Of a stretch of DNA of 64,000 nt, positions 1,567 through 64,000 are shown in pieces. Both the position numbers and the translations under genes were made by a program. Origin of the DNA: Nilaparvata lugens (taxonomy: Eukaryota; Arthropoda; Insecta; Hemiptera; Delphacidae); the NCBI RefSeq assembly GCF_014356525.2, contig NC_052511.1, forward strand, positions 29,525,960-29,589,959, given 5' to 3'. The notes beneath the pieces were generated by a model. That model searched no databases. It was given only the letters and a program-made list of their open reading frames with translations, and was not told the origin of the DNA. Position 1 is the stretch's first letter; every line of letters starts with the position of its first letter.

Positions 1567-3017
1567 GTGCCAAGAAAATATCAAACAGGAGATTAAAAAT
1601 GCTCAATATGTTTCTCTAATAGCAGATGAGACAACTGACATTTCGTCTGCATTTCAGTTAGTTTTAGTTTTTCGGTATATTTTATCAAATGGTCAACCAG
1701 TAGAGAGATTTTGGAAGTTCGATAATCCTGAGGGTCATGATTCACAATCGATTGCAAAATGTATTTTTTCAAGTTTGGATACTGTCATAACAATTCCAGA
1801 AAAACTCATTTCTCAAAGTTATGATGGTGCGAATGTGATGAGTGGACAACATGCTGGTGTGCAGACAATTGTGCAACAAACCTATAAGCATGCTTTTTTT
1901 GTGCATTGCTATGCACATCAACTCAATTTAATTGTAGCACAAGCAGCGAGTCAAAATCAAGATGTAAGAATTTTTTTCTCAGATGAGTGATATTACTAAT
2001 TTTTTTTCAAATTCTCCTCAAAGAATAGATGTTTTAGACAGAGTAGTCGGCAAACGTGTACCTAGGGCGTCAGCAACAAGGTGGAATTTTAAAAGTAGAA
2101 CTGTGAATACAGTTTTTGAATATAGAGAAGAGCTAATCGAGTGTATGGAGGAGATTCAATCCACATCAAAACAACCTTCTAGTATTATAAAAGCAGGTCT
2201 TCTCAAAGATAATAGATTCATTTTTTGGCTCTCGGTTTTTCACAGGCTAATGCCTCATGTTGACATTTTATATAATCAGCTGCAAACAGTTAAGACAGAT
2301 GCTATGAAAATCAAATCAAATGTTGAACATTTTATCAAAGCTGTTGAAGAGGAAAGAACTAAAATGAATGATTTGATGGAGATGGTAGCAGACTGTGCAG
2401 GAAGTGTGCCCAAACGTTCAAGGCGCGAAGAGGACACCTACCTCAGTAGAACAGTGGCTGCCAAGGAAACCTGTGACATCATCACCACTCAAATCAAAAC
2501 CCGGTTCTCATTCACAACATTCTATTCAGCAATCTGTTTATTGGACTCACAAAAATTTGAACATTTCAATAAGGATTTCCCAGATACCTTGCTTGAAGAT
2601 ACTGTTAAGGTTTACTCATTTCTTGAGAAAAATCGCCTAAAAACCGAACTTGAAATAATTTTTAGAAGAGTAGACTTCAGAAATTTGCTTGGTGCTGTCA
2701 GTTTGCTACAATTTTTCATTGAAAATAACTTAACTTCGTCATTTTCCGAAACCTATAAACTTTTGTTGATAATTTCAACCATACCAATGACAACAGCTGA
2801 AGCTGAGAGGTGTTTTTCTACACTAAAACGAATCAAGACGTTTTTGCGCTCCACAATGAACCAGGACAGGCTATCAGCATTAGCAATGCTGACTATTGAG
2901 AAGGAAATGATAGCAAATATCATTAACTTCAATGAGAAGGTGATCGATGTTTACGCAGCAAGGAAGGAGAGGAGGATGGATTTTATTTTCAAAAAATGCT
3001 CTGTAAATGCCAACTAG
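1567..3017 (+). pseudogene. hAT transposase, C-terminal two thirds (ZMYM1-like group)
   Basis: Translation shows the RNase H-like core of a hAT transposase of the kind annotated as zinc finger MYM-type protein 1-like. SLIADETTDIS holds the first catalytic Asp (near 1620), SYDGANVMSG holds the second region (near 1820), and CYAHQLNLI follows. The protein then changes frame near 1980 and ends with the hAT dimerisation block (TAEAERCFSTLKRIKTFLRS, near 2790-2850). The N-terminal BED or TTF-type finger is missing. One frameshift (frame 2 to frame 3 at about 1978-1983) breaks the reading frame. The upstream end is fused in frame to LINE sequence, so any single ORF here is chimaeric. Confidence 0.85.
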
Positions 3018-19896: not shown

Positions 19897-22373
19897 ATGC
19901 CGCCCAAACAGAGGAAGCAGTACTCTGACAAGATGATGCACGAGGCCATCCTAGCAGTGAGGTGATGATCCATTTCCTATGCTTCAAAACGGCTTGGGGT
20001 ACCGAGAATGACACTCTCAGACAAGCTATCAGGCCGAACACCTCAAGTTTGTAAATTAGGGCGAAAGACAGTCCTTTCATCTGAGGAAGAAGATGTGCTT
20101 GTCCAATGGGTTCTCAGTTGCCGGACGTCTGGATTCCCCATCAATTCTGATCAGCTGACCAAAAGCATAAAAACACTTGTCGAAAAGTTGGGGAAAGAGA
20201 CCCCTTTTACCGAAGATATGCCTGGTAAAAGATGGCTGGAGCTATTCCTCAAACGCCATCCGGAAATTTCAGTTAGGGAGCCACAAAAACTTACCCTTTC
20301 TAGGAGCAGCATCACTCTGGAAGCACTTGAAAATTGGTTTAAAGAAGTCAAGGAGTACATGACCTCACATGGCCTTCTTGACATCTTAGATGACCAGTCA
20401 AGAATCTACAACTGTGATGAAAGTGCTTTTTTTTGTCACCAGAACAAGGAAAGGTTTTGGCAGGTCGAGGGGACAAAACTGTGTACAGCATCACCAGCAA
20501 TGGTGAGAAAGAAAACATCACAGTGCTACTCATCATAGGTGCCAATGGAAGCATTGTCCCAGGCGCTGTCATTTTGCCAGGGGTCAGGAAGCCTCCCAGC
20601 ATCGATCAGGATTTCCCTGAACACTGGGGACTTGACAAAAGCAAAAAAGGCTGGATGACAGCCAAAAATTTCTATGAGTATGTGGCCAATGTATTTGAGC
20701 CATACTTGACAAGGAACAACATCCAACGCCCGGTGGTGTTGTTCCTTGATGGCCATTCCTCACACATGACCCAACACCTCAGCAACTTCTGCTCCGAAAA
20801 AGGGATTGAGGTTGTAGCTCTCTTGGCAAATGCAACACACATCTTACAACCCTTGGATGTCAGGGTGTTTCGTCCCTTGAAAAGTGCATGGAGGAAGGCT
20901 GTTGTTGTTTGGAGGGCCAAGAACAAGTTCAAGAAACTATCCAAAGAAAGGTTCTCTCCCCTGCTCATAAATGTCTTGACAGAAAACATCACTGAACGAT
21001 CATTACAAATGCCTTCAAAACGACTGGACTATTGATGCTTGACCCCACTGACTGTGACATGAGTAAATGTATAGGAAACACACCAAAGAACTATTTAAAG
21101 AAAGACAAAGTACACAACTTAAAAAAACACCTGATGTTCATAGAAACAAGACTTGACATTGACACTCTACATACTTTCAGAGCTGGTCTTCCAGTTGCCA
21201 ATGAAGACCGTAGTCTTCACAAGCTATGGTTTGATTTGAGGCAGGAAATCGACTCAAATACTATAAAACCTTCACCTCTTTAACTGCCTCCAGACAACAA
21301 CAACAACAGCCAGTCAGTTTCTGAACCTGTAAATGAAATCATTGTTGTGGCCACGGTTCACAACACTGATGAGTTAACCCCAATCCAAGACATGTCAGCA
21401 CTTGACTTTGACATAGGTGACATGTCACTTGACTTGGACTTGCCAGTGACATTTTTGGACCACTTGAACACATCATTTGACTCGACAATATCAGTACAAT
21501 CTCCCTCAAAAGAACAAGACAACAACTCAACTACATCACCCAAACAACACCTTTCTGTACCTGAAACTGACATACCCACTGACTCAGACCAAATACTAAA
21601 GACTCCAACTAACAGGACACCACAAGCACATTGCCCAGAAAAAACACCAGAGATACATAACTCACAGACATCTACTCCTCTCAAAGATGCAACCAACTTG
21701 ACCCCAAATCCTTCCACTCCAACCATACCATCACCTTTCAAAAACGTTCTGATTTGGCCTGAACCAGAAAAGAATTCAAGTGGAAAACGGAAAATGAAAG
21801 TCCAAACCCCATCAGTTATCACATCCAAAATATGGAAAGAATACCATGTGAAAATTGAGGCCGACAAGCAGAAGAAAGAAGCTGACATAGCTAATAGAAA
21901 AATACTTCGAGAGGAGAAGCAGAAGGCCAAAGAAGAAGCAGCAAAGAATAAAATTGCAAATCTAGCACATAAAAAACCAGCCGAAACGTTTGACGAAATA
22001 GAACCTGCTCCACTGACTGATGACGACGATACTACAGACACTTCAAGACCTTTCCACGTTGATAACTTGACCTTTCCACATTGATAACTTGACCTTTGAG
22101 TCAAAGCCTGCACCGGGAGACATCAAACCAGCTGTCTGGGTCATTGTGCCCTACCCTACCAGAGGTGGAGAAATGAAAAAGTTCATTGGGCAAGTCATCT
22201 CCATTGACCTCGAGGGAGCCACAGCAGCAGTTAAATATGTAGTGCAAAAAGGCTCAAAGTATGTGTGGCCTCTCAAAGATGACATTGACAACAAAGTGCC
22301 ACTAAGAGACATATTAAAAATTTTGACTGAGCCTCTCTTTGATAGATGGGAGTACCTGACATTAACTGAATGA
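19897..22373 (+). pseudogene. Tigger/jerky-like transposase (psq HTH, CENPB, DDE)
   Basis: The ATG at 19897 follows a splice-acceptor-like CTACAG. Order of parts: psq-type HTH (MPPKQRKQYSDKMMHEAIL), two consecutive TGA stops (19963-19968), SYASKRLGVPRMTLSDKLSG, the CENPB-type domain (GKRWLELFLKRHPEISVRE near 20225), then the DDE core. The catalytic residues are in IYNCDESAFF, VVLFLDGHSSH (20748) and LQPLDVRVF (20856), giving 35 residues between the second and third Asp. The C-terminus is long and acidic. Breaks: the two TGAs, a one-base loss in an eight-T run near 20427, a frameshift near 21020, a stop at 21281, and a 22-bp tandem duplication at 22055-22098. Confidence 0.85.
22055..22098 (+). 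repeat. 22-bp tandem duplication causing a frameshift
   Basis: The unit CACRTTGATAACTTGACCTT plus two bases occurs twice in a row. The 22-bp step is not a multiple of three and separates the frame ending at 22084 from the C-terminal frame at 22089-22373. Confidence 0.9.
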
Positions 22374-24066: not shown

Positions 24067-24493
24067 GTTGAGGTTAGAGGTGAGTACAAAAACGATCAAT
24101 TGTTTGAAAGAACAGTTTGTGTATGACAAAAGAATGAACAGTTCTAGCCTACAGAAAGAATCTGTCCTTTCCTCTCTCTGCCTCTTCTGAAAACTGACAC
24201 TCCAACTTCCACTGCCACTTCTTATTAGTAAACCGTTTGGCGTTTGCCACTGCTACTAGAATTATTGTCTCTATAGTTTTAGTTTTCAACGTAGCCTGTT
24301 CATTTTCGAAAACAAAATAATGAAAATTTGCAACATTCTGTTCTGTTGTTCCGTGCGACTGTGCTTTGATGTTAGTAAACATAAACAGATCCTACCGTTA
24401 GAGATATAATTTTTAAAACGAATTACAGTAGGCTATCATTTTATAGTTTGTTTTTTACAAACTGTTTTTGCAGAGTTTGTTCGTGTTTCGTGT
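24067..24493. other. No gene seen between integrase break and next ORF
   Basis: Junction sequence of unknown origin. It may hold the 5' end and first exon of the DUF7869-type gene that follows, but I see neither a convincing ATG exon nor the subterminal motifs found at 51.2-54.3 kb. Confidence 0.35.
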
Positions 24494-24541
24494 TTGAGTG
24501 TTTTACTTCATAATAATATGAATAATTATTTTTTGTTATTT

Positions 24542-25412
24542 TTCAGATACTCTGCCAAGAATTTACCAACCTATCCGACATGTGGACACAGGAAAGGATT
24601 CCAATGCACACTACTGATGATGCAGGACATCAAACGTTTTCATGAAGGTTTTTATTGTGAGCCAAAAAAGGGTAAACAGGATGCCTTTATCCTAAAGTAC
24701 TGCCATGCGAATCCACCTAATCCAAGAAGACAAAAGCTGGACTCATTACAACCGAGAACAACACAATTTGAATACACCATTGCTAATGAAGCTGGTGTAA
24801 ATATGTCAGTGTGTAGGGGAACGTTTTTGAATGTATTAGGCATAACCAAGCACAGGGTTATTGGAGTCTTCAAGAGATTCAAGAATGTACCAAATCACGT
24901 TCCTGGAGAAACAAGAGGGGGGGATCGCAAGAGAGAAAAATTCCAAAACAATAAGGATGCTGTAATCAATTTTATAAAAGAATTGAAAGCTTGTGAATCA
25001 CACTATGCGCGTGGGAAAAGTAATTGTGTTTACCTACCTTCTGAATTAAACATCAGCAAATTGTCAAAAATGTTCAATGATAGTGTAGAAGATGAACAGT
25101 TGAAGGTTAAAGAAAGTTTATTCAGGCAAATATTCAATACAAATTTCAATATAGGGTTTGGAGCACTGGCTGTTGATGAATGCAGTACTTGCTTGGAACT
25201 CAAAGAATTCAAATTGAACAAAATGATACTGAAAAAACTAACCTCAAATTTAAGCTTCAACTCCATCAAAAGCAGGCGAAATCTTTTTTTGAGTTCCTGA
25301 AGCAGAAACCAGATGACTGTTTTATAATGTCATTTGATTGTCAAAAAAATTTGGTTTTACCAAAAGTAAGTGACCAGATTGCGTATTATTCTAGGCAGTT
25401 GTTTGTATTCTA
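24542..25412 (+). pseudogene. DUF7869-type transposase-like protein, copy 1, broken
   Basis: The frame enters through an acceptor-like TATTTTTCAG (ending 24546). The protein has an N-terminal Cys region (PTYPTCGHRKGFQC), then VCRGTFLNVLGITKHRV, a basic hinge, HYARGKSNCVYLPSELNISKLS, FRQIFNTNFNIGFGALAVDEC and a CSTCLELKEF Cys pair. It shifts frame near 25222 and continues to SFDCQKNLVLPKVS, the first Asp of the core. The same order occurs in the gene at 51525-53986. It stops at 25412, near donor-like sites, and the rest of the core is absent. The family name is from memory; the function as a transposase is inference. Confidence 0.6.
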
Positions 25413-25902: not shown

Positions 25903-27684
25903 GGAAATGAAGAAGAAGAAGGCCCAGTCTTGGATGGTATTTCTCCAGCCCTGATGGAATCAGGAATGATGGAATCAGGTGGAACATGACTTCACCCCAC
26001 GTCCTCCACTGATGAATCTCCGATCTCAGAGAGGTGAGCCCAACATCATTGATAAATTGATTGAAGACACCATTGAAAGAAGAGATTGAAGATAGTTCTC
26101 CAGCAACTTGTCAGTCACTCAAGGATTTCCAATTAGCATATTTCAAGGAGATGAATATCACCGAAAAGAAAAATGTGGAATGGTTGAGAGGAGAATATAA
26201 CCCCAGCATAGTGAAAGAATATGAGGGAGGGCATGATGATGAAGTATTTGGCTCATTGTATCCTATGGAAATTTTTCATAAATATATACCACGGGAGATG
26301 ATAGTACAGATGGTTGACTGTACGAATTACTATGCAATTAGTAAGAAAATTGAAAATTTCAAACCAACCACAGCAGAGGAAATAAAATATTCTTGGGAAT
26401 TCATCTGGCTATGGGTAACTTGGGGTACCCAAGAGTACGAATGTACTGGGAGCCACGGTTTCATATTCCACTGATATCTGATTCTGGGATCACTATCAAT
26501 AGATTCTTCAAATTGCATACCTGTTTTCATGTCACCAAAGAAGATGAAAAGAAAGCTGGAAATAAGGAAAGGTTTTGGAAAATTCGACCAATTTATGATT
26601 CTGTAAGAAAAAGGTGCAATGAACTACCAGTTGAAAGCAAGCTTAGCATTGATGAACAGATGGTCCCGTTCAAAGGCTCCCTGGATGTGAAGCAGTACAT
26701 AAGAAATAAACCTACAAAGTGGGGAGTGAAAATCTTTGTACTTTGTGGTGAGAGTGGCACAATGTTTTACTTCCTCATCTATCAAGGATCTACAACTGAA
26801 GTGAAAAGTGAATATACTCAATTTGGACTAGGTGCTGCTGTTGTGATGCAGCTGTCAGAGAGGCTGCCTCTGTTTTGTCAAATATATTTTGACAATTTCT
26901 TTAGCAATTATCCTCTTTTTCAATGGCTGATGAAGAAAGAGATCTATGCTGTGGGTACCATTCGTGTGGTTAGTTTTGCAAGCCCCCATTGAAGACCGAC
27001 TCAGAAATGAAGAAATTACCCTGTGGATCTGTTGATGAAGTGGTTAGCAAAGATGAAATCATCCTAACTAAATGGTCTGACAACTCTTGTGTCACACTGG
27101 GATCAAACTTTATTGGAAAAGGTGAATTTGATACATGTCATCGTTGGGACAAGAAACAGAACCGCTACATAGATGTTCCTAGGACACAATGAGTGCAATT
27201 GTATAATGCTAGCATTATGAACTGGATATAAACTGGTCGATAAACTGGATTTCCTTGTTGCACTTTACAGAACGTTCATCAGAAGCAAGAAATGGACCCT
27301 GAGGATGTTTACACATGCTCTTGATTTAGCTGTCACCAATTCTTGGCTGGAGTACAGGAAAGAGTCGGCTAGACAACAAGTGCCTTCCAAAGAGATAATG
27401 GATCTCATCCACTTTCGTCAATATGTCTCAGAAGCCCTTATTGTTGGAGGGAGACAACCTACAAAGAAGAGAGGAAGGCCTTCTTCCACTGAAGAAGCAA
27501 CAACTGCACCACTACACCACAAACGAGTTGCAGCTATCAAACCAGTGATGGAAGTGAGGTATGATGGCATGCACCACCTACCTGAAGTGAGTGAAAAAGA
27601 ATCGCAAGATAGGTGCATGAATGAAGGATGCACAGGTAAAACATTCATTTATTGCTCGAAGTGTAATAGTATATTTCGCACCTA
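25903..27684 (+). pseudogene. piggyBac transposase, decayed, with zinc tail
   Basis: Starts after the CTTACAG acceptor with an acidic segment (NEEEEGPVLDGISPALMESG). The pieces are 26061-26474, 26393-26992, 26989-27192 and 27259-27684. SIDEQMVPFKGSLDVKQYI (near 26650) carries the first catalytic Asp and YFDNFFSNYPLFQWL (near 26885) the second. The region of the third Asp (about 27195-27260) is rearranged and the MGGVD motif is not readable. The C-terminus has TNSWLEYRKESARQ, KKRGRPS and a zinc-ribbon start CMNEGCTGKTFIYCSKC. At least four frameshifts or stops. No termini found. Same family as the fragment at 8402-8871. Confidence 0.85.
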
Positions 27685-39064: not shown

Positions 39065-41177
39065 ATGTCATGGACTGATAGGTAAGCCTAATATAAACTC
39101 ATGAATATTATTTATTGAAGTTATACACTGAATATTGTAATTATAGGGTTTCTAAAATATGCTTATTTGCGTTTCACATGGAAATTACTGTTTTTTATCT
39201 ATCAATACTAAGGTTAAATATTGATGTCCACATATGTCGACGGTGGGAACGACTGGTAGGGGCGATAGTTGTTGCAATTATTTGTTTGTTTTCAGGCTAA
39301 CGGTCGCTGAAATTGCCAGTATTTTAGAAGAAGATGAAGATATTGTCGATCCAACATTTTTCATAGATCCACCTGAAAATGCAGCCATCAGCGAGTGTGA
39401 TTCCGATGATGATACTCCTACAGGCAACATAAATCATTTATCTGGTAACCAACTCCGAGCTCGTGGTGAATTAATAAGAAGAAAGTTAACTGATGATGGG
39501 CTAGTTGAATTTAGAATCGGCGAAATAGAGGAAGAAGAAATAAGTCAAGAAAATACTGAACAAGAAGTAAACAAAGAAGAGAGTGTATCAATAAGCACAA
39601 ATAAAAATACTGAAGAACGAATTAGTGAAAATGTGACTGAGAAAAATTCGAAGAAGAGGAAACAAAAGAAAGATGTGAACAAAAAGAAGAAGAAGAAGGT
39701 GAAAGTGCTCAAGAAAATTCGTAAATGGCAAGAAAATGACATTGCAGATAAGACTTCTATAGAGTTTACTCGGGCAAATTTCTTGGAAAATGACTATTCT
39801 CCAGTAGAGCTATTTGAATTCTTTTTTGACAATGAAGTGGTTGAATACATCGTTTTTTGTACTAATCTATATGCTAGAGAAAAGGGAAATATGGATTTTT
39901 CTACCTCGAAAAATGAAATATGTCAGTTTTTTTCTATTCTTTTTTTGTCTGGCTATAACACAATGGCACGTTACAGAATGTACTGGGAAACAGCAGAAGA
40001 CACCCATCATGAGGCAGTTTCAAGTGCTATGTCACGTAATCGTTTTGAAGATCTCCTACGTTACATCCACTTCTGTAAAAATGTAAAGATTGACAAAGAT
40101 GACAAATTTGCTAAAGTCCGGCCAGTCATGTGTATGTTGAACGAACGATGGCTTCAGTACTTTCCTGGTGATGTCTATCTTTCAATCGATGAGTCCATGG
40201 TACCATATTTTGGTAGACATGGCGCAAAACAACATATCCATGGAAAGCCTATTAGATTTGGCTACAAAGTTTGGATGCTTGCTACAAGGTTAGGATATGC
40301 AATTCAAATGGAACCATATCAGGGCAAATCGACTGGTGCAACAAATCCAGAACTCGGTGTGGGAGGGTCAGTTGTAATGGACCTAATTTCTGAACTTCCA
40401 TCAGATAGGAAATACTGTTTCTTCTTTGACAACTTCTTCACATCTCTCAAACTACTGGAGGAATTGCGAAATAATGGACACTATGGAACAGGAACAATCA
40501 GAGTAGACAGAGTACAGGGTGCCCCTCTCCGCCAGCCTCAAGATCTAAAAAAAGAGCCAAGAGAAACTTTCCATCAAGTCACTGATACAGACACTAATAT
40601 AACCCTTGTAAGATACATGGATAATAGTGTCTTTACAATGGCATCAACAGCAACAGGTGTTCAGCCAATGGGAAAAGCAAAACGTTGGTCAAGTCATCAG
40701 AAAAAGCACATAATTATTCCTCAGCCTAATTGTGTGAACTGGTATAATTTGCATATGGGTGGGGTGGATAGATTAGACAAGAATGCTGCTGCATACCAGA
40801 TAAACATCCGTAATAAGAAGTGGTATTGGCCGATCATTGCATATCTCTTGAATGTTAGTATGAACAATGCTTGGTTATTGTACAGAATGACACAAAGAGG
40901 GGTGGAAAACAAACTTGATCTCCTTGGCTTTACAAGATACATTGTCCGCACTTATTTACAAACATGCACAACCCCTCGCCCTTCTTCAGGAAGACCAAGT
41001 ATGAAAGTGTCTAATAGGGTTCTGCCGGAAGTTCGTTTCAGTGGTAAGGATCATTTTCTGGAAACCGTCGAAAAACAAGTACGCTGTGCATTGTGTTCCA
41101 AAGCAACCAGAAAAAAATGCAAAATATGCAAAGTTGGTTGCCATGTGTTGTGTGCAGAGGCATTCCACACCCGCTAA
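39065..41177 (+). CDS. piggyBac transposase (PGBD3-like), apparently intact
   Basis: Two exons: 39065-39081 (ATGTCATGGACTGATAG) and 39296-41177, with a GTAAGC donor and a TTTTCAG acceptor around a 214-bp intron. The predicted protein is 632 residues: N-terminal acidic region, a Lys-rich nuclear-localisation-like block near residue 150 (KKRKQKKDVNKKKKKKVKV), then the DDE core with Asp in LSIDESMVPYF (about 304), FFFDNFFTS (about 384) and MGGVDRLDKN (about 497). The C-terminal zinc-binding tail is complete (CALCSKATRKKCKICKVGCH). All three catalytic Asp and the Cys tail are present and there is no internal stop, so the gene may still be functional. Confidence 0.93.
39082..39295 (+). other. 214-bp intron of the piggyBac transposase
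   Basis: GTAAGC...TTTTCAG. Splicing joins codon 6 (AG|G) and keeps the frame into LTVAEIASILEE. The intron holds an inverted copy of the element's terminal motif (CATATGTCGACGGTGGGAA, 39232-39250). Confidence 0.75.
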
Positions 41178-41746: not shown

Positions 41747-44189
41747 CAGTGAATATCGTTTATTATGACATCGGCTACAATGACCTATCGGATATAGTGA
41801 CCGGAAAGCTGCCCCTTGTTTGGTTTGCTATGCGTACAATGCTTTATTATATCGCTTATAGTGACATCGATTATAATCACATATCGGCTATTATGACCGG
41901 ATTTCTATCAAAATGAGGAAAATAATATCGTATATAATGACGAAACGTTAAGTAAACAGGATGTTCTCCAGACAGGAATCATCATGTCTGTATTTATTCT
42001 AGTTGAGCCGTATTATTGGTCAGTCTTTTATTACGAAATCGTGAAATGTGCATTCCTCTGAACATTATAGGCCTATTCAGACATTCAGTTCAATTCAGCC
42101 TTTCGTTCGGTTCGGTTGCATCCTACAGTATTTCGGTTTGATGTGTGATTGGATTGTTACTGTAAAGTGTGTGTTATATTAGTGTGTGTAGTGCATGTTT
42201 CATTAAATTTTACAAACAGAACTCTTATTTTAAATTGTATACAGTGTTGATAATAAGACTTTCACTATTGAAGAAAAATCGCACATCATTTGGCGAATTG
42301 AGAATGGTGAAGCAAATAGGGACATAGCGAAGGAATTAGGGGTTGGACATTCAACAATTTCGGTAATATGGAAAAATCGCGATAAAATTAAGCAGAGCTT
42401 CGAGACAAGTTCTATGAAATCAAAAAAACTTCGTCCTAGTCAAAACAATGACGTAGATCAAGCGTTGCTGAAATGGTTCAAGATACAAAGAGCGAATAAT
42501 ATTCCTATAAGCGGTTCAATTTTGCAGAGTAAAGCAAATGATTTGGCTGAGAAGTTGGGTAGACCTCGCGATATTACATCTGCATGGATACAACGATTTC
42601 GCCAGCGCCATGCAATCACAAGTGGTAGAATAAGTGGTGAGGCAGCAGCAGTTCCAACTGGTATTCCTGAAGACTGGTTAAACAATGTGTGGCCAAAATT
42701 ACGTGATATTTATCCAGATGAAAAAATTTACAATGCTGATGAAACTGGAATTTTCTTCAAACTGACTCCTGAAAAAACATTACGTTTCAAAGGTGAAAAG
42801 TGCACGGGGGGGAAATTGTCAAAAGACAGACTAACTGTTTTAGTTGCCGTGAATATGGATGGGAGTGATAAGCACAAGCTGATGGTTATAGGGAAAAGTG
42901 CTAAACCTCGTTGTTTCAAAAATGTTAATTTATTGCCAGTAACATATGAAAGTAACAAAAGTGTGTGGATGACAAGTGAATTGTTCGCTTCCTGGCTACG
43001 AAAATGGGACAATGAACTGAAATTGAAAAATGATAAAATATTGTTGATGGTAGATAACTGTCCAGCACATCCACATGTTGAAAATCTTACATCTATAAAT
43101 TTGGTGTTCCTCCCGCCTAATACAACATCTGTTTTGCAACCCTTGGATCAAGATGTTATAAGGTCTCTGAAAGTCAACTATCGGAAAAGTCTCATTCTAC
43201 AAATCATTCAAGATTTGGATGAAGGATGTGAAACAAAAGTCTCTGTACTCGACGCAATTACAATGTTAGAAAGAGCTTGGAATGAAGTCACATCCATTAC
43301 AGTGAAAAACTGTTTCAGACATGCAGGATTTTTAATACAGTCTGATAACATTATTGAATCTGCATGCACAGAAGAGTCGTTACAAGAATGGGGGAGAAGT
43401 TTGGCTCAACCAGTGTCTCAGGATTTCTTTGAAGAGTATGAAGAAGTAGACAAGGATTTGGAAACGACGGCAGCTGTAAGTGATGAGGAATTGCTGACTT
43501 CGACTTTGAGAGAAGAAGACGACGTTACAAACACTGAGAAAGACAATGATAATGATGAGGAAATCAATCCACCAACACTGACTGAAGCTTGTAAAGCGAT
43601 CAAGACAATTTGCCAATTTCTTAGTGTCACAAATACAGCAGATGAAGCAACAAAAAATGTTCTATTTAATCTAGAGAAACAGTTTCAAACATCGTACTAC
43701 AATTCAAAGTGCAAAAAACAAACGAAAATTACAGACTTTTTGAAAAAGACCTAATTTTAACATTTTTTTGAGTTCAATTTTTTCTTATTTTGAGTTCAAG
43801 TTTTTTTTTATGAAACATTGAATTATTTTCAAACTAAAATGAAATTTATGAAGTAGCCTACTGAAGTTTTTGAATGGGCCATATTTGTATACTGTATTAA
43901 CCGGGACTTTCATTTGAATGTGACTTCGTTTGTGATTTCGTTTCAATTTTCATAAAAATTATTAAAAATTTACAGTACATTATAATAATATAAAGGACAT
44001 TTCAGTTTGGAAAGTGTGTTTACCTGGAATAAAATGCTGCAACGAAAACGTAAGTGTCATTATTTATGCTGTTTTTTCACTAATGTATACTTTAGTACTT
44101 CCTGAGCCTAGTATCGGATAAAGTGACTATCGGTTATAGTGACCCAAAACTGATGGTCCCTTGAAGGTCACTATAAACGATATTCACTG
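41747..44189 (+). mobile_element. Tigger-type transposon, 2.4 kb, nested in the Sailor-like element
   Basis: CAGTGAATATCGTTTAT at 41747 is matched in inverse by ATAAACGATATTCACTG ending 44189, with TA on both sides (41745, 44190). Subterminal motifs like TATCGGYTATAGTGAC recur near 41790, 41846, 41880, 44107 and 44123. It holds one long transposase ORF. Confidence 0.93.
42246..43754 (+). CDS. Tigger/CENPB-like transposase, near intact
   Basis: The frame is open from 42246 after an acceptor-like GTATACAG to a TAA at 43752, with no internal stop or frameshift. The first ATG (42414) would drop the HTH, so an upstream exon probably supplies the start. Parts: psq/CENPB-N helix-turn-helix (FTIEEKSHIIWRIENGEANR; DIAKELGVGHSTIS), HTH_CENPB (AEKLGRPRDITSAWIQRFRQ), then the DDE_1 core with YNADETGIFF, LLMVDNCPAH (43053) and LQPLDQDVI (43146). 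The second and third Asp are 30 residues apart. The acidic C-terminus ends with a short basic tail (KCKKQTKITDFLKKT). The catalytic Asp residues are present. Confidence 0.92.
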   Translation, partial: VDNKTFTIEEKSHIIWRIENGEANRDIAKELGVGHSTISVIWKNRDKIKQSFETSSMKSKKLRPSQNNDVDQALLKWFKIQRANNIPISGSILQSKANDLAEKLGRPRDITSAWIQRFRQRHAITSGRISGEAAAVPTGIPEDWLNNVWPKLRDIYPDEKIYNADETGIFFKLTPEKTLRFKGEKCTGGKLSKDRLTVLVAVNMDGSDKHKLMVIGKSAKPRCFKNVNLLPVTYESNKSVWMTSELFASWLRKWDNELKLKNDKILLMVDNCPAHPHVENLTSINLVFLPPNTTSVLQPLDQDVIRSLKVNYRKSLILQIIQDLDEGCETKVSVLDAITMLERAWNEVTSITVKNCFRHAGFLIQSDNIIESACTEESLQEWGRSLAQPVSQDFFEEYEEVDKDLETTAAVSDEELLTSTLREEDDVTNTEKDNDNDEEINPPTLTEACKAIKTICQFLSVTNTADEATKNVLFNLEKQFQTSYYNSKCKKQTKITDFLKKT

Positions 44190-50776: not shown

Positions 50777-51192
50777 GGAGTATTTGAAAGACAGTGAGTT
50801 GTAGAGCATTCAATTCTCTTTAATTTAATTTATTATTTCATCATTTTATGCTTTCCATCAATTTTTATAGCAGTTTTAGTGTTGAGTATGGTAGGAGTGA
50901 GGATTTTTTATATGCTTACCTCCTCACTTTCCTTAAAAGGACTGCGAGGTCAAAAATTGAATTCCAAACTTCTTCCTCTATATATTTTTGAGCATTCATT
51001 GCCTGGACTAGTATCTTATTACAAATAAAGTGAGCCTTAATGACACTTGAAAGGTTGTGGGCTGTGAGATTATTTTCTTTTTAATATTGAATTGAAACTC
51101 GAGTATGTTCCTTGTTTTAGTTTAGCTTATTTTTCTGTATTTTATAATTTCTAATTTTTGATTTATATTCTACTCTAATCTTTATTAAATCT
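50777..51192. other. Rest of hAT interior; partial extra MITE arm
   Basis: Holds the fourth module copy (50890-50980) and AT-rich DNA without a gene. Confidence 0.5.
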
Positions 51193-51524
51193 AATCGGTC
51201 ATTTGAGAAACAACATATAAGTCATTTTTTGGTCAAATTTAGTTAGCAGTGGAATATGATTCCTTATAAATGATTACATCGATTCCCATCAGAAACAACA
51301 CAAGTCAACGCTTCCTTCATTGGTTTGTAGGACTCTTGAAATATTCATTTCATGGAGAAACAACATAAGTCCTGACTTGTGTGGTTTCTCATGGAAACAG
51401 CTGATCTGGCGACCATGCTGACTTGCCACCAATAAGGTTATGTTTGATTCGTCATTCGTGAACGTGAACTGTGTTTATTGTTGATGGATTTCTCTTTCTT
51501 GTCAAGTGATATAGATATTTGATT

Positions 51525-53986
51525 ATGGAGCCTGCTAATATCAATATTGAAGTAGTTGAATGCTCGAAAAAGAGGAAAAAAGTTATGCTTCTGAAATTAT
51601 TAAAAAATCCAGAGTATCTGGGAGTGCTTACACCAATAGTGCAGGGAATCCAATCATGGAGTTGAAACCAGGAAACGATTGCAAGTAAGTTATTCACATT
51701 TCTAGAATTCATATAATATAAGTTGAAATGTTTCATTATCATTGAGTATTTCAACTTTTATTGTTCAAGCATCTTCATTTCAACATCAATGAGATTTAGC
51801 CTAGGCTACATAGCTTAGATCCAAGTGTACAATTACGCTTGTGTAACTAGGTACTGTACAACTTGGTAGCTCTGTATAGTACCTCATATAATAATACGCT
51901 AATGCAAACTAAGGTTTGCACAGATGTTATCTATCTATAAAATTATTTCTTTGTGGATTAGAATCATTGAAACGAAAGTAATAGGCTAGTAGAGGTGACT
52001 GTATTATTTGAAAATTATGGATAACACACTTTCAACAATTATGAGAATATATTAACACTTTTTAGATGACTAGAATCAAACAACATCATGACCAGTGTTA
52101 TGAGAAAGAGCAATAGAGAACTTGAAATAATAATGGTTCATTATATTATAAACCACAGCTGGTGATGAACACTTTTCTTCTTATCACTTTTTACACTGAT
52201 GATTACTGAACAATTACTGATATAAATCTGTCATAGTATTAGATAGATTACTACCATCTATTATATCAGATATGGTAATGTGTTGTTCCAGGTGTCGTCG
52301 GATGTGCTACATCAAAGTATCAGAGGAGAATCGACTTACTGTTTTTAAAAACTTCAGAGGCATGAGCTCCAAGAATGAACAGGACAATTACCTACAATCG
52401 CTGATTTCAGCTTCTGAGGTGAAGCAACGAAGAAGAAGGAAGCCAGAAGAAGAGTCCAATAAACCAGAAAGAGGTAGCTCATTCATTTATGAAATTTCAA
52501 CGTCTTCAGGTAAACACCAGGTATGTAAAACAGCATTTATAAACATCCATGCCATTACTAATGAGCGCATGAGGAGACTAACATCATTGCTGAAGGAAGA
52601 GAAAACACCAACTGATAAACGAGGAAAAAATACACCAGGAAATGCAAAGCCTGGTTATGTGTTGGAAGCTGTGAAAACACATATTGCAAGCTTCCCTGTC
52701 AAAATAGCTCATTACAGCTCTAAAGAGTTCAGGTATCTCAGTGAGCAGCTTAATGTGTTACAAATGTACAAACTTTTCAAAGAATCAAACCCAGAAATTG
52801 ACATTGGGTACAAATTGTACCTTCGAATTTTCAAAGAAAACTTTTCTCTCTCTTTTGGCAGACCACAAGTTGACACTTGTTGTACTTGTGAGGAGCTGAA
52901 TGTGAAGATAAAGAGTAAATTCTTGAATGATGTAGCAAAACGAGTGCATGTTGCTGAAAAATTAGTTCACATAAGATGAGCTAACAAATTTCACTCTAAA
53001 ATGAAAGGTGTTAGAGTTGATGGCTACTCAGCCCAATGTTGGAGCAATTTGCATCGACTACATGCAAAATGTGTCACTACCAACAATCCCAGCGCAAGAG
53101 ACATTTTACCTCCGCCAACTAACGGTCTCAGTGTTCTGTATCCACAATTTGAGAGATGACAGTGTTGTTCTATTTATGTATCATGAAGGGATTGCAACTA
53201 AAGGCCCAAATGAAGTTACTTCTTTCATTATGGACTATCTGAAAACATATTTGAATGATATTGAGCATCTGCACATTTTTTCTGATGGTTGCTCTGCTCA
53301 GAATAAGAATCATACCCTACTGAGGGTAATCAATTCACTAGTCTCTATTGAAAAGCTTAAATCAGCAGAGCAGTATTTTCCAATCAGGGGTCACTCCTTT
53401 CTGCCCTGTGACCGAGACTTTGCTGTCATTAGACGTAAGCTGAGAAAATTTGACAGAGTTTTTACTGTAAAAGAACTGGCTGAGATAATTTTGAGTGCAC
53501 CCAAGAAAAACAATTTTTTTTGTTATTCCCGAGTCAAAAGATATAACTGATTTTAAATCTTGGTGGCCAAGCTTCTACAAAAGGAATGTTTTATCAGATG
53601 AAACACGAGGAAGGAATGTTCATAAAAATGACAAGGTGTCATTTAAAATCAGTCAATTCATGCACATATCTCACTCATGTGAATATCCAGCAGTCATCAA
53701 GGCAAAGAACTTCATTGATGGTCTCCAAGCTCACGCATTCCATCTTAGGAACTCAAAGCAATATCAACTGATCTTGCCACAGAATCCAGCCTATGCTCAG
53801 GGCTCAATACCAATCAACAGTAAAAAAATGAAGGATTTGGAGAAATTCAAGCCCTATATTCCAGATTATGAATGTATCAGAAGCTTCTATGATGACATCT
53901 TCGCTTGGCCAACAATTGAGAATGAAGCAGCATGTGAAGCAGAATATAAAATATGGACTAGAAATGGAATAGAAATAGTAAGATAA
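51525..53986 (+). CDS. DUF7869-type putative transposase, two exons, minor breaks
   Basis: Exon 1 runs from ATG 51525 (MEPANINIEVVECSKKRKK) to 51684, followed by GTAAGT. Exon 2 starts at 52292 after TTGTTCCAG and restores CKCRRMCYIKVSEENRLTVF across the junction. Parts: basic N-terminus; Cys cluster CKCRRMC; CKTAFINIHAITNERMRRL; FSLSFGRPQVDTCCTCEEL; then a core with ICIDYMQNVSLP (Asp, near 53024), HIFSDGCSAQNKN (Asp, near 53273) and GHSFLPCDRDFAVIRRKL (near 53386); C-terminal tail PINSKKMKDLEKFKPYIP. I propose the two Asp and the DRDF Asp as metal ligands. Breaks: one base in an A-run of exon 1, TGA at 52977, a shift near 53005 and one extra T near 53515. Confidence 0.65.
51685..52291 (+). 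other. 607-bp intron of the DUF7869-type gene
   Basis: GTAAGT donor and TTGTTCCAG acceptor. Joining them completes an AAG codon (AA|G) and links two Cys-containing segments found together in family members. No element ends are visible inside. Confidence 0.65.
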
Positions 53987-54830
53987 ATCAATTTTCTTGC
54001 TCATATTTGATAAAATAAAATTAATGATGCTGATCTTGATATCCCTTATTTGTTTTATTTTGATACTTCAAGATAATTGACCCAAATAATGTTGTTTTCA
54101 GACAGAAAAAAATCATTTCTTTAAGAAACACCATAAGTCAATTTTTTTAAAAATCATTTATTAATGAACTAATGAGGATTCGGGTCTGTGCTTGTATTGA
54201 AAGTGTGACTAGATTGTATATGTCCCATTCACTCAATTTGCACACTTTTATAATCACTAAGATGTGTATAAGGAAGTTTTTTCCTTCTCCTGGAAAATGC
54301 AAATTGTTGACTTATTTGTTTCTCAAATGACCGATTCATTTTAGGAAGTCAATTATTTTTGTGCGGAGAAATTGAATAAAATTATGCAATGAATGTTAAA
54401 TTACACTCAATTCTTTGTTGACTTTGTTTACTTGATTTACAAGCATTTATTAGTAAGTAAAATAATCTTATTCAACTTGTGAGACATGAAAGTAGCATGA
54501 TAATAGTGGTGCAATTGAATGATTTATTGAGTGCTCATTTCTCCTTTCAGTCTATGATCAGTCTATGAACTTCACATTACTGTTTTCTTTGAACTTACAA
54601 AATTAATAAGTTATTCATCCTTATATTTCTTACATAAATCTGTTGTATAACAGGTGATTGTGACCATGTGTAACAAAAAACGTCTTTTTCGGTCATTTTT
54701 TATGAAAGAAATCATAAATTTCCTCAAGTTCCCATAAATTCCCGAGAATTTATGATTTTTGGGAATATTTCTCTTAAATTCCCTGGGAATATTTCCTCGA
54801 TCTTAAATTCCCGGGAATTTTACATCACTA

Positions 54831-55200
54831 GCTCTTCCACTCACATTTGAGTTATGGAGTGCGTCTATGGGGTGATTCCGTTCATTCAAAAACAGTGTTC
54901 CTATGGCAAAAAAGGCTCTTAGAGCTATTCTAGGACTAACACAGAGAGATTCATGCAGGCCACATTTCCCTAATTTCGGCATACTAACCCTTCCATCTCT
55001 TCATTTATTCCCATTTGATTTATATCAAGGAAAACTCAGAAAAATTTTACATTCATGAAGACTTCCATGCATATAATACCAGGAGCAGCCGGGATACATT
55101 GAAACTTTCGGATTGTTTAGTGTTATTTCCGGCTCTTATCAACCCTTCGAAATTCAAAATTCATCAGTCATATCTCGAATACGTATTCTCTGAGTGTTAA
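54831..55200 (+). pseudogene. LINE C-terminal region, right part of the split copy
   Basis: Continues 49500-49613: HSHLSYGVRLWGDSVHS, then a shifted frame with RAILGLTQRDSCRPHFPNF and ILTLPSLHLF, then 55015-55200 (HAYNTRSSRDTLKLSDC). At least two frameshifts. An (AATA)n tail follows at 55351-55372. Confidence 0.8.
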
Positions 55201-55375
55201 TCTTTGGTGAAAACAGAAATTTTAAACTTAACCTCACTTTGTGAGGTTATATGGGAGGTTTTGTGAGGATTTATGTGCCAAAATCAAGGAATTGAAGAAG
55301 TTTTGGGCAATTGCCTGTTTCTCTTTCTAAATATCGTGTTTGTGACTGTTCTAATAAATAAATAAATAAATAAAC

Positions 55376-55567
55376 AGTAGAAACATTGTAGCACTACAAA
55401 TAAGACTTATTAAAACTATGAGAAGCCATTCTTACCAACAGTGTATATTGTATAATAAACTGCCTCAAACAACCAGGAATCAGCCTCCAAAAAAAATCAA
55501 GAAAGTTATATACAGTTATCTGAAGAATAATGCCTTTAACTCACTTGAGGAATATCTAAATACCTAA
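55376..55567 (+). pseudogene. Second LINE 3' end, 63 codons
   Basis: An open run directly after the (AATA)n tail ends in YNKLPQTTRNQPPKKIKKVI...FNSLEEYLNT, the usual C-terminus of LINE ORF2 proteins, with TAA at 55565. It is a different family from the LINE just upstream. The next 280 bp hold nothing I recognise. Confidence 0.7.
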
Positions 55568-55849
55568 CTTGAATGTAATATAAATATGCTTTATCATGTA
55601 TGATTTTCTATCCAATTGTGTGTACTTTTAAAATGTATATATATTATGACTTGCCTAATGCTATAATTGCAAGGATACTTCAATCGTAATAATGATGCTA
55701 ATCTGTGACAATGGGACTCAGCATACCAGCAGACATTTCCGTTCTTATTGATAGGGGAACGGGATGACTGTGTTTTTCACCCCTTCTATTCTACTAGTAG
55801 TAACCCTACATAGAGAGTTAACCGTGTACTTAAGACTATGATCCAAATT

Positions 55850-56483
55850 TTGTAGGAAAGAACCATTCAGTTTGGGATCGATATTTAAGAGAGTTTTGCT
55901 TTGCTATGAATACTACTGTTCATCAATGTACACAGTATTCGCCGGCTTACCTCAACTTTGGTAGAGAATTGAGAGCCCTGGGTGAATCGGCGTTCGAGTC
56001 TCAGGATGATCCTTGTATGCAGGGATTTGAAGATAGTGGGGCTACACTTCAAAAAAACCTTAGGATTGTCACAAACTAGGAAAATAGTAGATAGTATTTA
56101 GACAAGGCATATAGGGATGCTAGTTGCTATTATAATCTCCGGAGGCGAGATATAAAATTATCTCCCGGATAGTTAGTATACAAAAGAGAGCATTATTTGT
56201 CTTTAGGAGTGGATCAGTTTGCCGCGAAGCTTGCCCCAAAATCCTCAGGCCCCTGGGAGGTGGATGACATCTTAAGTCCCACTGTCGTGAAACTTGGAGT
56301 GTGTGATAATAAGTTGATATCTGTTCATGTGAAGGATATTGAATTATTGCCTCCCAGAGTAGAAGAAGAGGAGTCCGACTCGGAAGAGCAGGCGAATGTA
56401 AACTTCATTGTTGGAGAGAGACGCGGGTTGACTATAGGGCACTTAGACAGCGCAAGGTGCGGGGGAAGTACCTTGCTCATCTA
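55850..56483 (+). pseudogene. Ty3/gypsy integrase C-terminal relic
   Basis: Readable pieces: WDRYLREFCFAMNTTVHQCT, YSPAYLNFGRELRAL (integrase end), then, after two stops near 56080-56100, LDKAYRDASCYYNLRRRDIK and the GPY/F-type module (SSGPWEVDDILSPTVVKL, 56239-56292) followed by an acidic tail. No RT or LTR is next to it. It is a different gypsy family from that at 12-24 kb. Confidence 0.8.
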
Positions 56484-56909
56484 GTTATTACGCTTCCCGC
56501 TAGATGTCATGGCAGGGATGATTCACTTGCTTTTTGTTTTCCTTCTTCATAATTATAGTGTATTAGACGTTTGAATCTAGTCTGCTCTGTTTTTTATTTA
56601 TGAATTGAGTTTTAGGTTAGTTGAGTTTGGAATTTTGAAATAATAGCGTGAAAAAATGCCATCTCTATAATAATCTTCAACATAATCTTATAATATCAAT
56701 AGCCTTCTTATAATCGTCTACACTCTCATCTTCTATTTCCTATTTTGTGATAGCTATCTTTATATCAGATATCTTTTGTATTTATTTTTTTGTAGGAATA
56801 ATGGTGATATATATCATGGTTGAATCTAAGAGTTTTATAGTTCTCAACTAATGGTTGTGATCGTATCTGGTATAGTTGCCTCTTCTCATACGAATTAGTT
56901 GAGCCATTT
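56484..56909. other. No gene seen
   Basis: AT-rich sequence after the gypsy relic; it could include an LTR, but there is no partner copy. Confidence 0.4.
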
Positions 56910-57165
56910 TACTATGAGCAAAAGGTGAAAAGCTGCTCTAGACTAGACTCACCTTTTTTGAAGCATTTGCTTCAAAAGTTAAGCAAATGCTCTAGTTTAT
57001 TCATACAATTTTGAGTATAAGCTTTTAATTTTGAGCAAATGTTCAAACTATATTTTTGATGAGCATGAGCAAAAGGTTTTGCTCACGTTTATTAATAGAA
57101 AATGAAGCAAATGCTCCATATTTTAAAAGTATAAGCAAATGAGGAGCTTTATTCATATGACCCTA
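56910..57165. repeat. Cluster of AAGCAAATGCTC motifs in both orientations
   Basis: Seven or so variants of (G)AAGCAAATGCTC or its inverse lie near 56918, 56960, 56980, 57036, 57072, 57107 and 57133, two of them as head-to-head palindromes (GAAGCATTTGCTTC, GAGCAAAAGGTTTTGCTC). Confidence 0.6.
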
Positions 57166-57391
57166 TATTTTTCCACAGAAATTACCATTCAAAAACATTT
57201 GCTAATTTCCTTACCATGTCATTTACTTTTTCCACGTGTCATCTTAGTACTGTAACTAATAATACTTGAACATTTTTAAAACTTTACAACAGGTACTATT
57301 TTATGTCATATATTAAAAACGATTGATCACAGATGATGATTATTTTATAAATTACCTGACAGATTGTTAAGCATACATTTAAGAACAGTAA

Positions 57392-58035
57392 TCCTATACT
57401 ATTAAACGAGCAACTTCTGTTTATATGTTTAGATGTTTGGATGTTTAGATGTTTATATGTTTGATTTTACCGGATTTCGAAAACGGCTCTTACGATTCTC
57501 ACGAAATTCAGAACATAGTAGGTTTATAATATAAAGATTCGATTGCACTAGGTCTCATCCCTCGAAAAACTCGCTGAAGCACATTAAAAGGATAATTATT
57601 ATTCATCCTTGGAAAAACAGCTGATAATTTTATTTCGTCGTCTGTTGGTGATGGAAGTGAGTGAGCGAGTTCATGTGTGTGGGACTGTGTCAAAATTATG
57701 ACTCAGCTGTTGAACTTTTGTAATCATTCAATCAGGTATTTATTGCCGGTTGCAAAAAAGCCGGATAATTTTCAATCCTGATTAATTCCAGTAGATCCAT
57801 CTTTTTGAAATGGTCTTTTCTGATTTGGTTCACATGAAGTTAATCAGGATTGAAATTTAACCGGCTTTTGTGCAACTGGGCCTTTATGAGGGAAATTTTT
57901 GCATTCCTCTGGGAGTTAATCTCAATTTACTGTGATTAGATAGAACATTTCTGTATGAATGTTATCATAATCTCTTCTTTTGTAATACATTTTTATGCTT
58001 TTGTACTCCAGAGCGAAGCTCGGTCCCCGATATAA
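57392..58035 (+). mobile_element. Non-autonomous Helitron/Helentron-like element
   Basis: It starts TCCTATACTATTAAACGAGC, continues with (ATGTTTAG)n and a block ACCGGATTTCGAAAACGGCT, and ends with CCAGAGCGAAGCTCGGTCCC, a short hairpin (AGC-GAA-GCT type) close to the 3' end. Inside, GCCGGATAATTTTCAATCCT (57753) pairs with AGGATTGAAATTTAACCGGC (57847) as a long hairpin. No Rep/Helicase gene. The class call is from memory of such ends in insects. Confidence 0.5.
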
Positions 58036-59851: not shown

Positions 59852-60727
59852 AATAATCTTAAATCTTTCAAATCTAAATTACACCTATGGTGATGGATCA
59901 TTCTCCGGTTGAGATTAATGAGCTTTTTGTTGTCATTCTTAGATGAATACCCTTGACTAGTGATGTGGGTGGGCAAATGCCCAGTGGGCAGGACATTTAT
60001 AAATGGGCATTTGCCCAAAGCAGTTTTAAATGCCCAAAATGTGGGCATTTATGGAAAAGTGTCTTTTTTTTACTTTTTACTATTTTTATTGTTACTAGAG
60101 CTTCTAAAACATAATATAAACTATTAATTAAACGTAAATTTTTTGGATGAAATAAAAATGCCTTAATTGCAGTTGTTCTGAGGGCATTTAAAATTAAGTG
60201 CTTAAATAAAATAATTTTAAAAGCAAAGGGTACTTTAATTTCTATGAATATGCCTTAATTTGTTTATTTGTTGATGTGTAGGCCTATAATATGTTTGATA
60301 AAAAAATGTTAAAAAAACAATACCCAAGTATTGTTAATAATAATTTAATTATCCTGTGCAATTGTCAATAACACTTAATGGCAATGGTGTATATCTAGCT
60401 TGAATAAAACATTTGAAGGATTGAGTTAGGACTGCAGACTGCTGTAGGAGTTTCATATGGTGTGAACAGTGAGTATTGAGTGCGGTTGATAGTCGAGGGG
60501 GGGGGGGTCTGAGCAGCATTGTGCTGTGATCTTTGAGTAGGAGTGGGGTGGGTGGGTGTGGTCTTGAGATTGGTGAGTCGTGAGTCATTCTAGCACCAGC
60601 CCTGAGCTCAGTTAGTTAGTTGTGAAGTAGCAGTAGAAGTAGAAATGACTGTTGAGTGATTGAGTCTGAGATAACGTCACTTATTTATACTACTTATATT
60701 TTTAAGGGTGGATTAAATCATTACAAA

Positions 60728-61124
60728 ATGGTTAAAAAAGGGACCTATTTGGAACTTTTTCAATTTGAAAGGGAAAGGAGTAACTTGTAAATATTGTAAT
60801 AAGGACTATCAGCAGTCACATTGTAACAAAATGGAAAAGCACATAAAAAAGTGTTTCAAGTGCCCTCAGGATCTAAAGAAAGTGCTTCAGACAAGTACAG
60901 TTACAGTGGTTAAAAAACTTTTTCAAAAGAAACCTTCTTATGAACCTTTACTAATTGAAGTGGATGACAAATCTGCAGTACCAAACACAAGCTCAGCCTT
61001 TGAACCAAAATCAAATTCTTCTTCTGATGTCCTACAACGTTCGCAGCCTATATCGACCTCAAGTCCAAAAGGAAAAGGACCCCGAACTCCTTCGTTTTTT
61101 GACCACATGGATCTCCAAACTAAT
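60728..61124 (+). pseudogene. hAT transposase first exon with BED zinc finger, copy 1
   Basis: ATG 60728 then an A-run. From the following G-run the frame reads GPIWNFFNLKGKGVTCKYCN and HCNKMEKHIKKC, a BED finger (W..F, C-x2-C, H-x4-C). A Ser-rich linker follows and ends SFFDHMDLQTN at a GTAAGT donor (61125). The A-run here has six A where five would keep ATG in frame. The ORF beyond the donor is intron. Confidence 0.7.
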
Positions 61125-61789
61125 GTAAGTAAACATTATGAAAATGTACAAACATTACTAGGCCTAGGCCTGCTTCAAATTTTTAGACTATAATTTTTTA
61201 AACCTTTTCAGATTGTAAAGTTTTTTAATATTTGAGGCCATAGGCCTAATTTTTCAGCCTAATGGAACGCTATTAGACTATTTATTTACTTAGAATTAAA
61301 CTTAGTTTACAACCAAATCTTAATAAATTACAGTTTATCAAAAGAAGGCATATGTTACTAAACTACCAGATAAGTTAGGCTAGGTCTGTCAATATCTGCC
61401 AGATATCAACAAGCCTAGCCTAACTGAGGTTCTATTAAAATTGATGATCCGATACCAGGTAGAGATGACAGCCTAGAAGAAAGTAAAAATTTAAAAAACC
61501 TTTGTTTGGAAATAAAATTGTTATTATTACGGTAAAAATTCTACCCATAGCGTAACTTGAATAGCAGTTAGCATAAAAAATAGGTTAGGTATATTATGAC
61601 ACTTTGTAACTTTGTACGTCTTTTATGAACATATGAACTGAAGCATAAAGATGGTAAATAGGCCTCTATTTGATGGATTTTACCTGGTTGGCACATAGCA
61701 GTAATAGACTAACTCCTTCATAGACCACGCCTATTTTGTTTCTACAAGAGATAGATGTAGTATGTAACTTATCTGGTTCAAAAAGCATA
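61125..61789. other. Intron or flank after the BED exon; inverted repeat
   Basis: No further hAT exon. A perfect short inverted repeat, GTTAGGCTAGG/CCTAGCCTAAC, lies at 61374-61423, and AGGCCT palindromes are dense here. Confidence 0.5.
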
Positions 61790-62272: not shown

Positions 62273-64000
62273 TAGTGATGTGGGTTGGGCAAATGCCCAG
62301 TGGGCAGGACATTTATAAATGGGCATTTGCCCAAAGCAGTTTTAAATGCCCAAAATGTGGGCATTTATGGAAAAGTGTCTTTTTTTTACTTTTTACTATT
62401 TTTATTGTTACTAGAGCTTCTAAAACATAATATAAACTATTAATTAAACGTAAATTTTTTGGATGAAATAAAAATGCCTTAATTTGCAGTTGTTCTGAGG
62501 GCATTTAAAATTAAGTGCTTAAATAAAATAATTTTAAAAGCAAAGGGTACTTTAATTTCTATGAATATGCCTTAATTTGTTTATTTGTTGATGTGTAGGC
62601 CTATAATATGTTTGATAAAAAAATGTTAAAAAAACAATACCCAAGTATTGTTAATAATAATTTAATTATCCTGTGCAATTGTCAATAACACTTAATGGCA
62701 ATGGTGTATATCTAGCTTGAATAAAACATTTGAAGGATTGAGTTAGGACTGCAGACTGCTGTAGGAGTTTCATATGGTGTGAACAGTGAGTATTGAGTGC
62801 GGTTGATAGTCGAGGGGGGGGGGTCTGAGCAGCCATTGTGCTGTGATCTTTGAGTAGGAGTGGGGTGGGTGGGTGTGGTCTTGAGATTGGTGAGTCGTGA
62901 GTCATTCTAGCACCAGCCCTGAGCTCAGTTAGTTTAGTTGTGAAGTAGCAGTAGAAGTAGAAATGACTGTTGAGTGATTGAGTCTGAGATAACGTCACTT
63001 ATTTATACTACTTATATTTTTAAGGGTTGGATTAAATCATTACAAAATGGTTAAAAAAAGGGACCTATTTGGAACTTTTTCAATTTGAAAGGGAAAGGAG
63101 TAACTTGTAAATATTGTAATAAGGACTATCAGCAGTCACATTGTAACAAAATGGAAAAGCACATAAAAAAGTGTTTCAAGTGCCCTCAGGATCTAAAGAA
63201 AGTGCTTCAGACAAGTACAGTTACAGTGGTTAAAAAACTTTTTCAAAAGAAACCTTCTTATGAACCTTTACTAATTGAAGTGGATGACAAATCTGCAGTA
63301 CCAAACACAAGCTCAGCCTTTGAACCAAAATCAAATTCTTCTTCTGATGTCCTACAACGTTCGCAGCCTATATCGACCTCAAGTCCAAAAGGAAAAGGAC
63401 CCCGAACTCCTTCGTTTTTTGACCACATGGATCTCCAAACTAATGTAAGTAAACATTATGAAAATGTACAAACATTACTAGGCCTAGGCCTGCTTCAAAT
63501 TTTTAGACTATAATTTTTTTAAACCTTTTCAGATTGTAAAGTTTTTTAATATTTGAGGCCATAGGCCTAATTTTTTCAGCCTAATGGAACGCTATTAGAC
63601 TATTTATTTACTTAGAATTAAACTTAGTTTACAACATCAAATCTTAATAAATTACAGTTTTATCAAAAGAAGGCATATGTTACTAAACTACCAGATAAGT
63701 TAGGCTAGGTCTGTCAATATCTGCCAGATATCAACAAGCCTAGCCTAACTGAGGTTCTATTAAAATTGATGATCCGATACCAGGTAGAGATGACAGCCTA
63801 GAAGAAAGTAAAAATTTAAAAAAACCTTTGTTTGGAAATAAAAATTGTTATTATTACGGTAAAAATTCTACCCATAGCGTAACTTGAATAGCAGTTAGCA
63901 TAAAAAATAGGTTAGGTATATTATGACACTTTGTAACTTTGTACGTCTTTTATGAACATATGAACTGAAGCATAAAGATGGTAAATAGGCCTCTATTTGA
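62273..64000 (+). mobile_element. hAT element 5' portion, duplication copy 2
   Basis: Starts TAGTGATGTGGGTTGGGCAA, one T more than copy 1. The rest matches copy 1; the window ends before any 3' terminus. Confidence 0.65.
63047..63444 (+). pseudogene. hAT BED-finger first exon, copy 2
   Basis: As copy 1, but the A-run after ATG GTT has seven A. Neither copy has the length that would join ATG and BED finger in one frame. Donor GTAAGT at 63445. Confidence 0.7.

Follow-up and report, generated by a model that had tools for sequence, protein, structure and literature searches.

A 64,000-nucleotide stretch of the planthopper Nilaparvata lugens genome (RefSeq assembly GCF_014356525.2, contig NC_052511.1, forward-strand positions 29,525,960 to 29,589,959; hereafter the window, numbered from its first letter) contains a 3.1-kb unit with inverted ends and a gene for a DUF7869-type protein, raising the question of what kind of genetic element this unit represents. 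An initial annotation, made from the sequence alone, regarded it as a self-contained transposon and a candidate new DNA transposon group. Our analysis indicates that it is very probably a dead copy of a cut-and-paste DNA transposon from the Sola superfamily, with Sola2 as the likeliest group and the DUF7869 protein as its DDD (DD41D) transposase, named for a triad of aspartates.

Whether the unit is an element at all depends on its termini. The initial annotation had placed the inverted ends correctly at 51193 and 54336, but the perfect match between these terminal inverted repeats (TIRs) spans 21 bp rather than the 18 bp reported and, judging from relatives, the right terminus is the C at 54337, one base beyond the perfect TIR; the left terminal G expected from the same relatives is missing in the window copy. 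Exact inverted repeats of at least 18 bp lying 0.5-6 kb apart account for 36 k-mer matches in this repeat-rich window, the TIR pair included; when the window was shuffled under a first-order Markov model, such repeats turned up in 7 of 200 shuffles. Since repeats of this kind also occur elsewhere in the window, the TIR pair alone is not decisive; the termini are credible because the same end recurs at other places in the genome. A search of the 1.085-Gb assembly with the left 301 bp (40 candidates scored) returned 53 match rows, which merge by eye into about 40 separate places including the query itself, the others being 72-90% identical. The initial reading of the unit as a self-contained DNA transposon is supported, and its termini are real.

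According to the initial annotation, other copies with different or no shared termini would have refuted its reading; other copies were found that do share the termini. A protein search with one relative (L014; related loci carry L numbers) gave at least 105 match rows, which merge by eye into just under 100 places, the window and its duplicate among them; 104 of 1,476 candidates were scored, and the counts are lower bounds. TIRs enclose the gene in each of five protein lineages and are flanked by exact 4-bp duplications in four of these, and TIRs in the other lineages form runs of 28-37 bp with up to three mismatches. Identity to L055, a near relative of L014, is 40% for L053, 44% for L059 and 26% for both L063 and L066 (alignment A2). 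Both ends are present in L053, with differing 4-bp flanks (CACT/ACTT), and L063 has inverted ends and a duplication. In two of the lineages, the pairs L058/L059 and L063/L064 show 98.5-99.7% identity where they overlap, and they have termini, exact 4-bp duplications and frames open for more than 550 codons, which together suggest recent activity. Short copies that keep these ends but have internal deletions (for example L016, 247 bp; L019, 758 bp; L015, 1550 bp; L013, 1617 bp) fit movement in trans. A second, truncated relative lies within the window at 24410-25300 (+), 26% identical to protein P0030 over 189 columns in a pair comparison (E 2e-10); a Pfam search of this frame gave no match.

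The flanks of these copies define both the element boundary and its target site duplication (TSD). With the element start set at the G of GAACAGG, GAATCGG, GAATTGT, GAAGGG or GGAGGG, the 4 bp on either side are identical in 10 of 16 two-ended copies, while 12 other symmetric boundary shifts give a count of zero, except for 2/16 at shift -5, and no copy (0/16) matches over 5 bp. At the fixed boundary, equal 2-bp flanks occur in 1/16 copies against 10/16 for 4 bp; a Tc1/mariner element was rejected on this ground, the TA duplication being absent. The exact duplications are AATT (L013, L015, L016, L058), ATTT (L014), AAAT (L019, L063, L064), AGTT (L059) and ATAT (L066), to which seven further two-ended copies of the L066 family add one (L073, ATGT). 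Across the wider family, 11 of 23 two-ended copies thus carry an exact 4-bp duplication and 12 do not; nine of the 11 read AWWT, all 11 follow A..T and none is TTAA. The 16-copy count leaves out copies with one end poor or spurious (L009, L012, L017, L038, L039, L045, L048), the near-duplicate of the window (L029, L030, L049) and short copies with a left-type end on either side (L025, L027, L028, L031-L037), none of which has an exact 4-bp match, and retains L022, of the two-left-end type, as a miss. Copies with one or no end found were not counted (among them L010, L018, L020, L021, L024, L040-L044, L046, L047, L051, L052, L054-L057, L060-L062 and L065), and L067, which has no right end, was left out of the set of seven. 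The unmatched flanks of L072 and L074 are both common to the two copies, which look like one insertion duplicated. A search for an empty site of L013 recovered only its own two flanks, which overlap by the 4-bp duplication, and a repeat that covers the right flank. In L068-L071, of the GAAGGG family, the left terminal bases are altered and no duplication is seen, with a right end perfect over 25 bases, possibly reflecting imprecise left-end events.

The protein supplies the second line of evidence. The identification of a DUF7869-type product holds, this domain (PF25273) being the sole Pfam match of the window catalytic-core peptide, at 37.5 bits against a curated cut-off of 26 bits; the match covers residues 55-166, starting after the first Asp. 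The peptide is above the cut-off, yet Pfam gives the domain no function. The motifs CIDYMQN, FSDGCSAQNKN and GHSFLPCDRDF, in which the initial annotation had seen a plausible RNase H-like triad, are present, and their three Asp residues are conserved in relatives (alignments A1 and A3 are selected rows of the best 120 of 350 matches, A3 also drawing on the best 120 of 344). The predicted structure agrees with that proposal, showing an RNase H-like core with the Asp triad on beta1, after beta4 and in the helix after beta5, the places that the triad occupies in integrases. Retroviral integrases and the Mos1 mariner transposase share this core and have their acidic triad at corresponding topological places, a likeness of fold only, since sequence identity is 6-15% across the alignments listed and no membership is implied. 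Foldseek is weak by itself, the best match of the long model being TnsB (E 2.8e-4). Of the PDB sequence searches, one gave no match and another gave four ribosomal chains (E 0.45-0.54) that were taken as chance.

The gene had been described as a single spliced gene, and one intron is indeed plausible: its boundaries read GT..AG, and the spliced product DCK/CRRMC (slash, junction) resembles DCKCRRKC of the annotated leafhopper (Homalodisca) protein P0004, continuous across the junction. The gene is not intact, with a TGA at 52977-52979 and three frame changes, two of them in exon 2 (near 53010-53035 and 53500-53530). As read from its sequence, the window gene is a pseudogene, a point absent from the initial annotation, and the element a dead copy. 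Coordinates are given in Table 1.

Table 1. Features of the DUF7869 element and its gene (window positions)
Feature	Position	Strand	Details
Sola2-type transposon relic (probable), whole element	51193..54337	+	3145 bp including right terminal C; termini judged from related copies
Putative TSD, left flank ATCT	51189..51192	.	imperfect, inferred; 3/4 bases as right flank
Left TIR AATCGGTCATTTGAGAAACAA	51193..51213	+	21 bp
Subterminal copy of terminal motif, CAGAAACAACACAAGTC	51290..51306	+	15/17
Subterminal repeat GAGAAACAACATAAGTC	51355..51371	+	query pattern for repeat search
Subterminal repeat, inverted	51374..51390	-	15/17
Exon 1	51525..51684	+	ATG at 51525; frameshift near 51575-51590; like N-terminus of P0004
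Intron	51685..52291	+	GT..AG, 607 bp; read from sequence
Exon 2	52292..53986	+	Cys-rich N-terminal part and catalytic core; stop at 53984-53986
First catalytic Asp (CIDYMQN)	53056..53058	+	conserved in 54/55 (A3), 52/52 (A1), 10/10 (A2) rows
PF25273 DUF7869 match	53167..53502	+	E 2.4e-9, Pfam, frame from 53005
Second catalytic Asp (FSDGCSAQNKN)	53284..53286	+	55/55 (A3), 52/52 (A1), 10/10 (A2) rows
Third catalytic Asp (GHSFLPCDRDF)	53410..53412	+	55/55 (A3), 52/52 (A1), 10/10 (A2) rows; spacing DD41D
Subterminal repeat near right end, AAGAAACACCATAAGTC	54123..54139	+	15/17
Right TIR	54316..54336	-	21/21 bases complementary to left TIR
Putative TSD, right flank ATTT	54338..54341	.	imperfect, inferred

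The remaining question is to which superfamily such an element belongs. Sola2 was reportedly defined by Bao et al. in 2009. The literature describes Sola2 as having TIRs and 4-bp AT-rich 'AWWT' duplications such as ATAT, AAAT and ATTT (PMC3627910), and Sola elements in general as having a DDD transposase, 4-bp duplications and a length of mostly 2-9 kb (PMC10741241); Repbase treats Sola1, Sola2 and Sola3 as groups of one superfamily (PMC4455052), and each of the three has insect miniature inverted-repeat transposable elements (MITEs) assigned to it (PMC5199201). Against this description, the wider family shows the 4-bp A/T-rich (AWWT) duplication, with the window copy agreeing at only three of four bases; the window TIRs, at 21 perfect bp, exceed the 11 bp required of Sola2; the conserved Asp triad and the predicted fold point to a DDD-type RNase H transposase; and the size falls within the 2-9 kb range. 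Two differences are that the related proteins here are about 560-670 aa long, compared with 888 aa in the Dictyostelium element (PMC3627910), and that the window copy is a pseudogene relic. Given the published Sola2 features of the wider family, the proposal of a new transposon group is not supported. A match to a known superfamily, named in the initial annotation as grounds for abandoning that proposal, is probably present, judged from these features.

Several observations weigh against the Sola2 assignment. The label rests on described features rather than on direct sequence comparison with published Sola2 proteins, the remaining defining feature being transposase similarity, for which Repbase uses a PSI-BLAST criterion; we hold Sola2 as probable and leave some room for a separate superfamily. 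Exact duplications are lacking in 6 of the 16 copies, among them the copy in the window and that of lineage L053, and in 6 of the 7 additional two-ended copies, all of one family; the window's own flanks, ATCT/ATTT, agree at 3/4 bases, and even this requires a lost left terminal G. The copies with two left-type ends are 250-590 bp long and have no 4-bp duplication; in L035, inversion extends even to the flanks, whose 14 bases on one side mirror those on the other as an inverted copy. Apart from itself, the right-hand 250 bp finds a single near-identical duplicate 123 kb away, so that the exact window subfamily is a near-singleton. That duplicate (L049 492-5793, same contig) repeats window 52598-57896 in inverted orientation at 99.9% identity and breaks off exactly where a 100-base assembly gap begins (L049 5794-5893); it is perhaps an assembly duplicate rather than a second insertion. 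Among divergent lineages, L062 and L063 fall below the Pfam DUF7869 model, and the stretches fetched for L062 and its near-identical partner L061 revealed no inverted ends. Finally, the best Foldseek matches of the window peptide are to MutS-beta (E 6e-4), not to transposases.

Among alternatives, the most serious is that DUF7869 elements form a DDD superfamily of their own, apart from Sola1-3, whose AWWT-like targets arose by convergence. If so, the initial annotation would be right on novelty, and arthropods would harbour a very common superfamily of DNA transposons that has no name, with several lineages of near-identical copies in the planthopper. No direct sequence link joins these proteins to a published Sola2 transposase: no dictyostelid-named relative appears among the best 120 of 350, 344 and 558 matches, most rows being nameless, and in the literature searched we found no Sola2 protein motifs, no printed link between DUF7869 and Sola2 and no paper mentioning DUF7869, a domain whose function Pfam leaves unknown. 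We nonetheless consider such independence unlikely, since published Sola2 elements likewise have the DDD triad, TIRs and AWWT duplications, and a DNA transposon so common in insects would hardly have been overlooked when Repbase lists Sola1-3 and insect MITEs have been assigned to each. No close viral or prokaryotic relative emerged when profile A1 was scanned against viral contigs (57 pattern matches) and genome contigs (54), none of these matches being confirmed.

It is far less probable that DUF7869 is encoded here by a host gene, ordinary or domesticated, caught by chance as a passenger within the inverted repeats of another element. The window gene is broken, its exact right end is nearly unique, and L060, a relative with a long open frame, has no terminal repeats in the stretch fetched, all of which would suit a passenger; this reading is strongly disfavoured, and was rejected, on the grounds that several protein lineages have TIRs of their own, mostly with exact duplications, that the predicted fold and triad form a transposase core, and that matches are so numerous in one insect. 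Least probable of all is a piggyBac or Kolobok element with an unusual protein. The 4-bp, A/T-rich duplications and A/T-rich flanks would accord with it, and yet the target of both groups is TTAA, which is found in none of the exact duplications, and the window peptide matches DUF7869 only, whereas three other frames of the window match DDE_Tnp_1_7; the candidate was rejected for want of the TTAA duplication.

Those three frames (PF13843, which we take to be the piggyBac transposase model) lie at 15664-16728 (E 2.2e-55), 26354-26992 (E 4.9e-41) and 39225-41177 (E 8.1e-86), the last open over 650 codons. DDE_1 transposase frames, presumably pogo/Tigger-like, occur at 20421-21035 and 42234-43754, the latter spanning 506 codons with Tc5 and CENP-B DNA-binding domains. 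At 1103-3017 there are hAT-like transposase remains (Dimer_Tnp_hAT, E 3e-11; DUF4371 below cut-off), adjoined by a protein judged by eye to be non-LTR retrotransposon-like. One frame of 150-odd codons occurs twice, at 60717-61193 and 63055-63513, about 2.3 kb apart, with a BED-finger-like pattern noted by eye.

Under the Sola2 assignment, the Cys-rich N-terminal part of an intact relative's transposase would recognise the GAGAAACAACATAAGTC-type repeats, both those at the termini and the subterminal ones, which are putative binding sites. The DD41D site would then cut the element out at its GAA...TTC termini, and the element would be joined to breaks staggered by 4 bp at A/T-rich A-N-N-T sites, mostly AWWT, leaving the 4-bp duplications; we infer the strand-transfer chemistry, the N-terminal binding and the staggered cut. 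Such a mechanism would take the place of a 'domain of unknown function'. DUF7869 probably adds no transposon superfamily, and the DUF7869 proteins of many insects, recorded for example as 'uncharacterized protein', very likely represent Sola2-type transposases or what is left of them, and should be masked or classified as such in gene sets.
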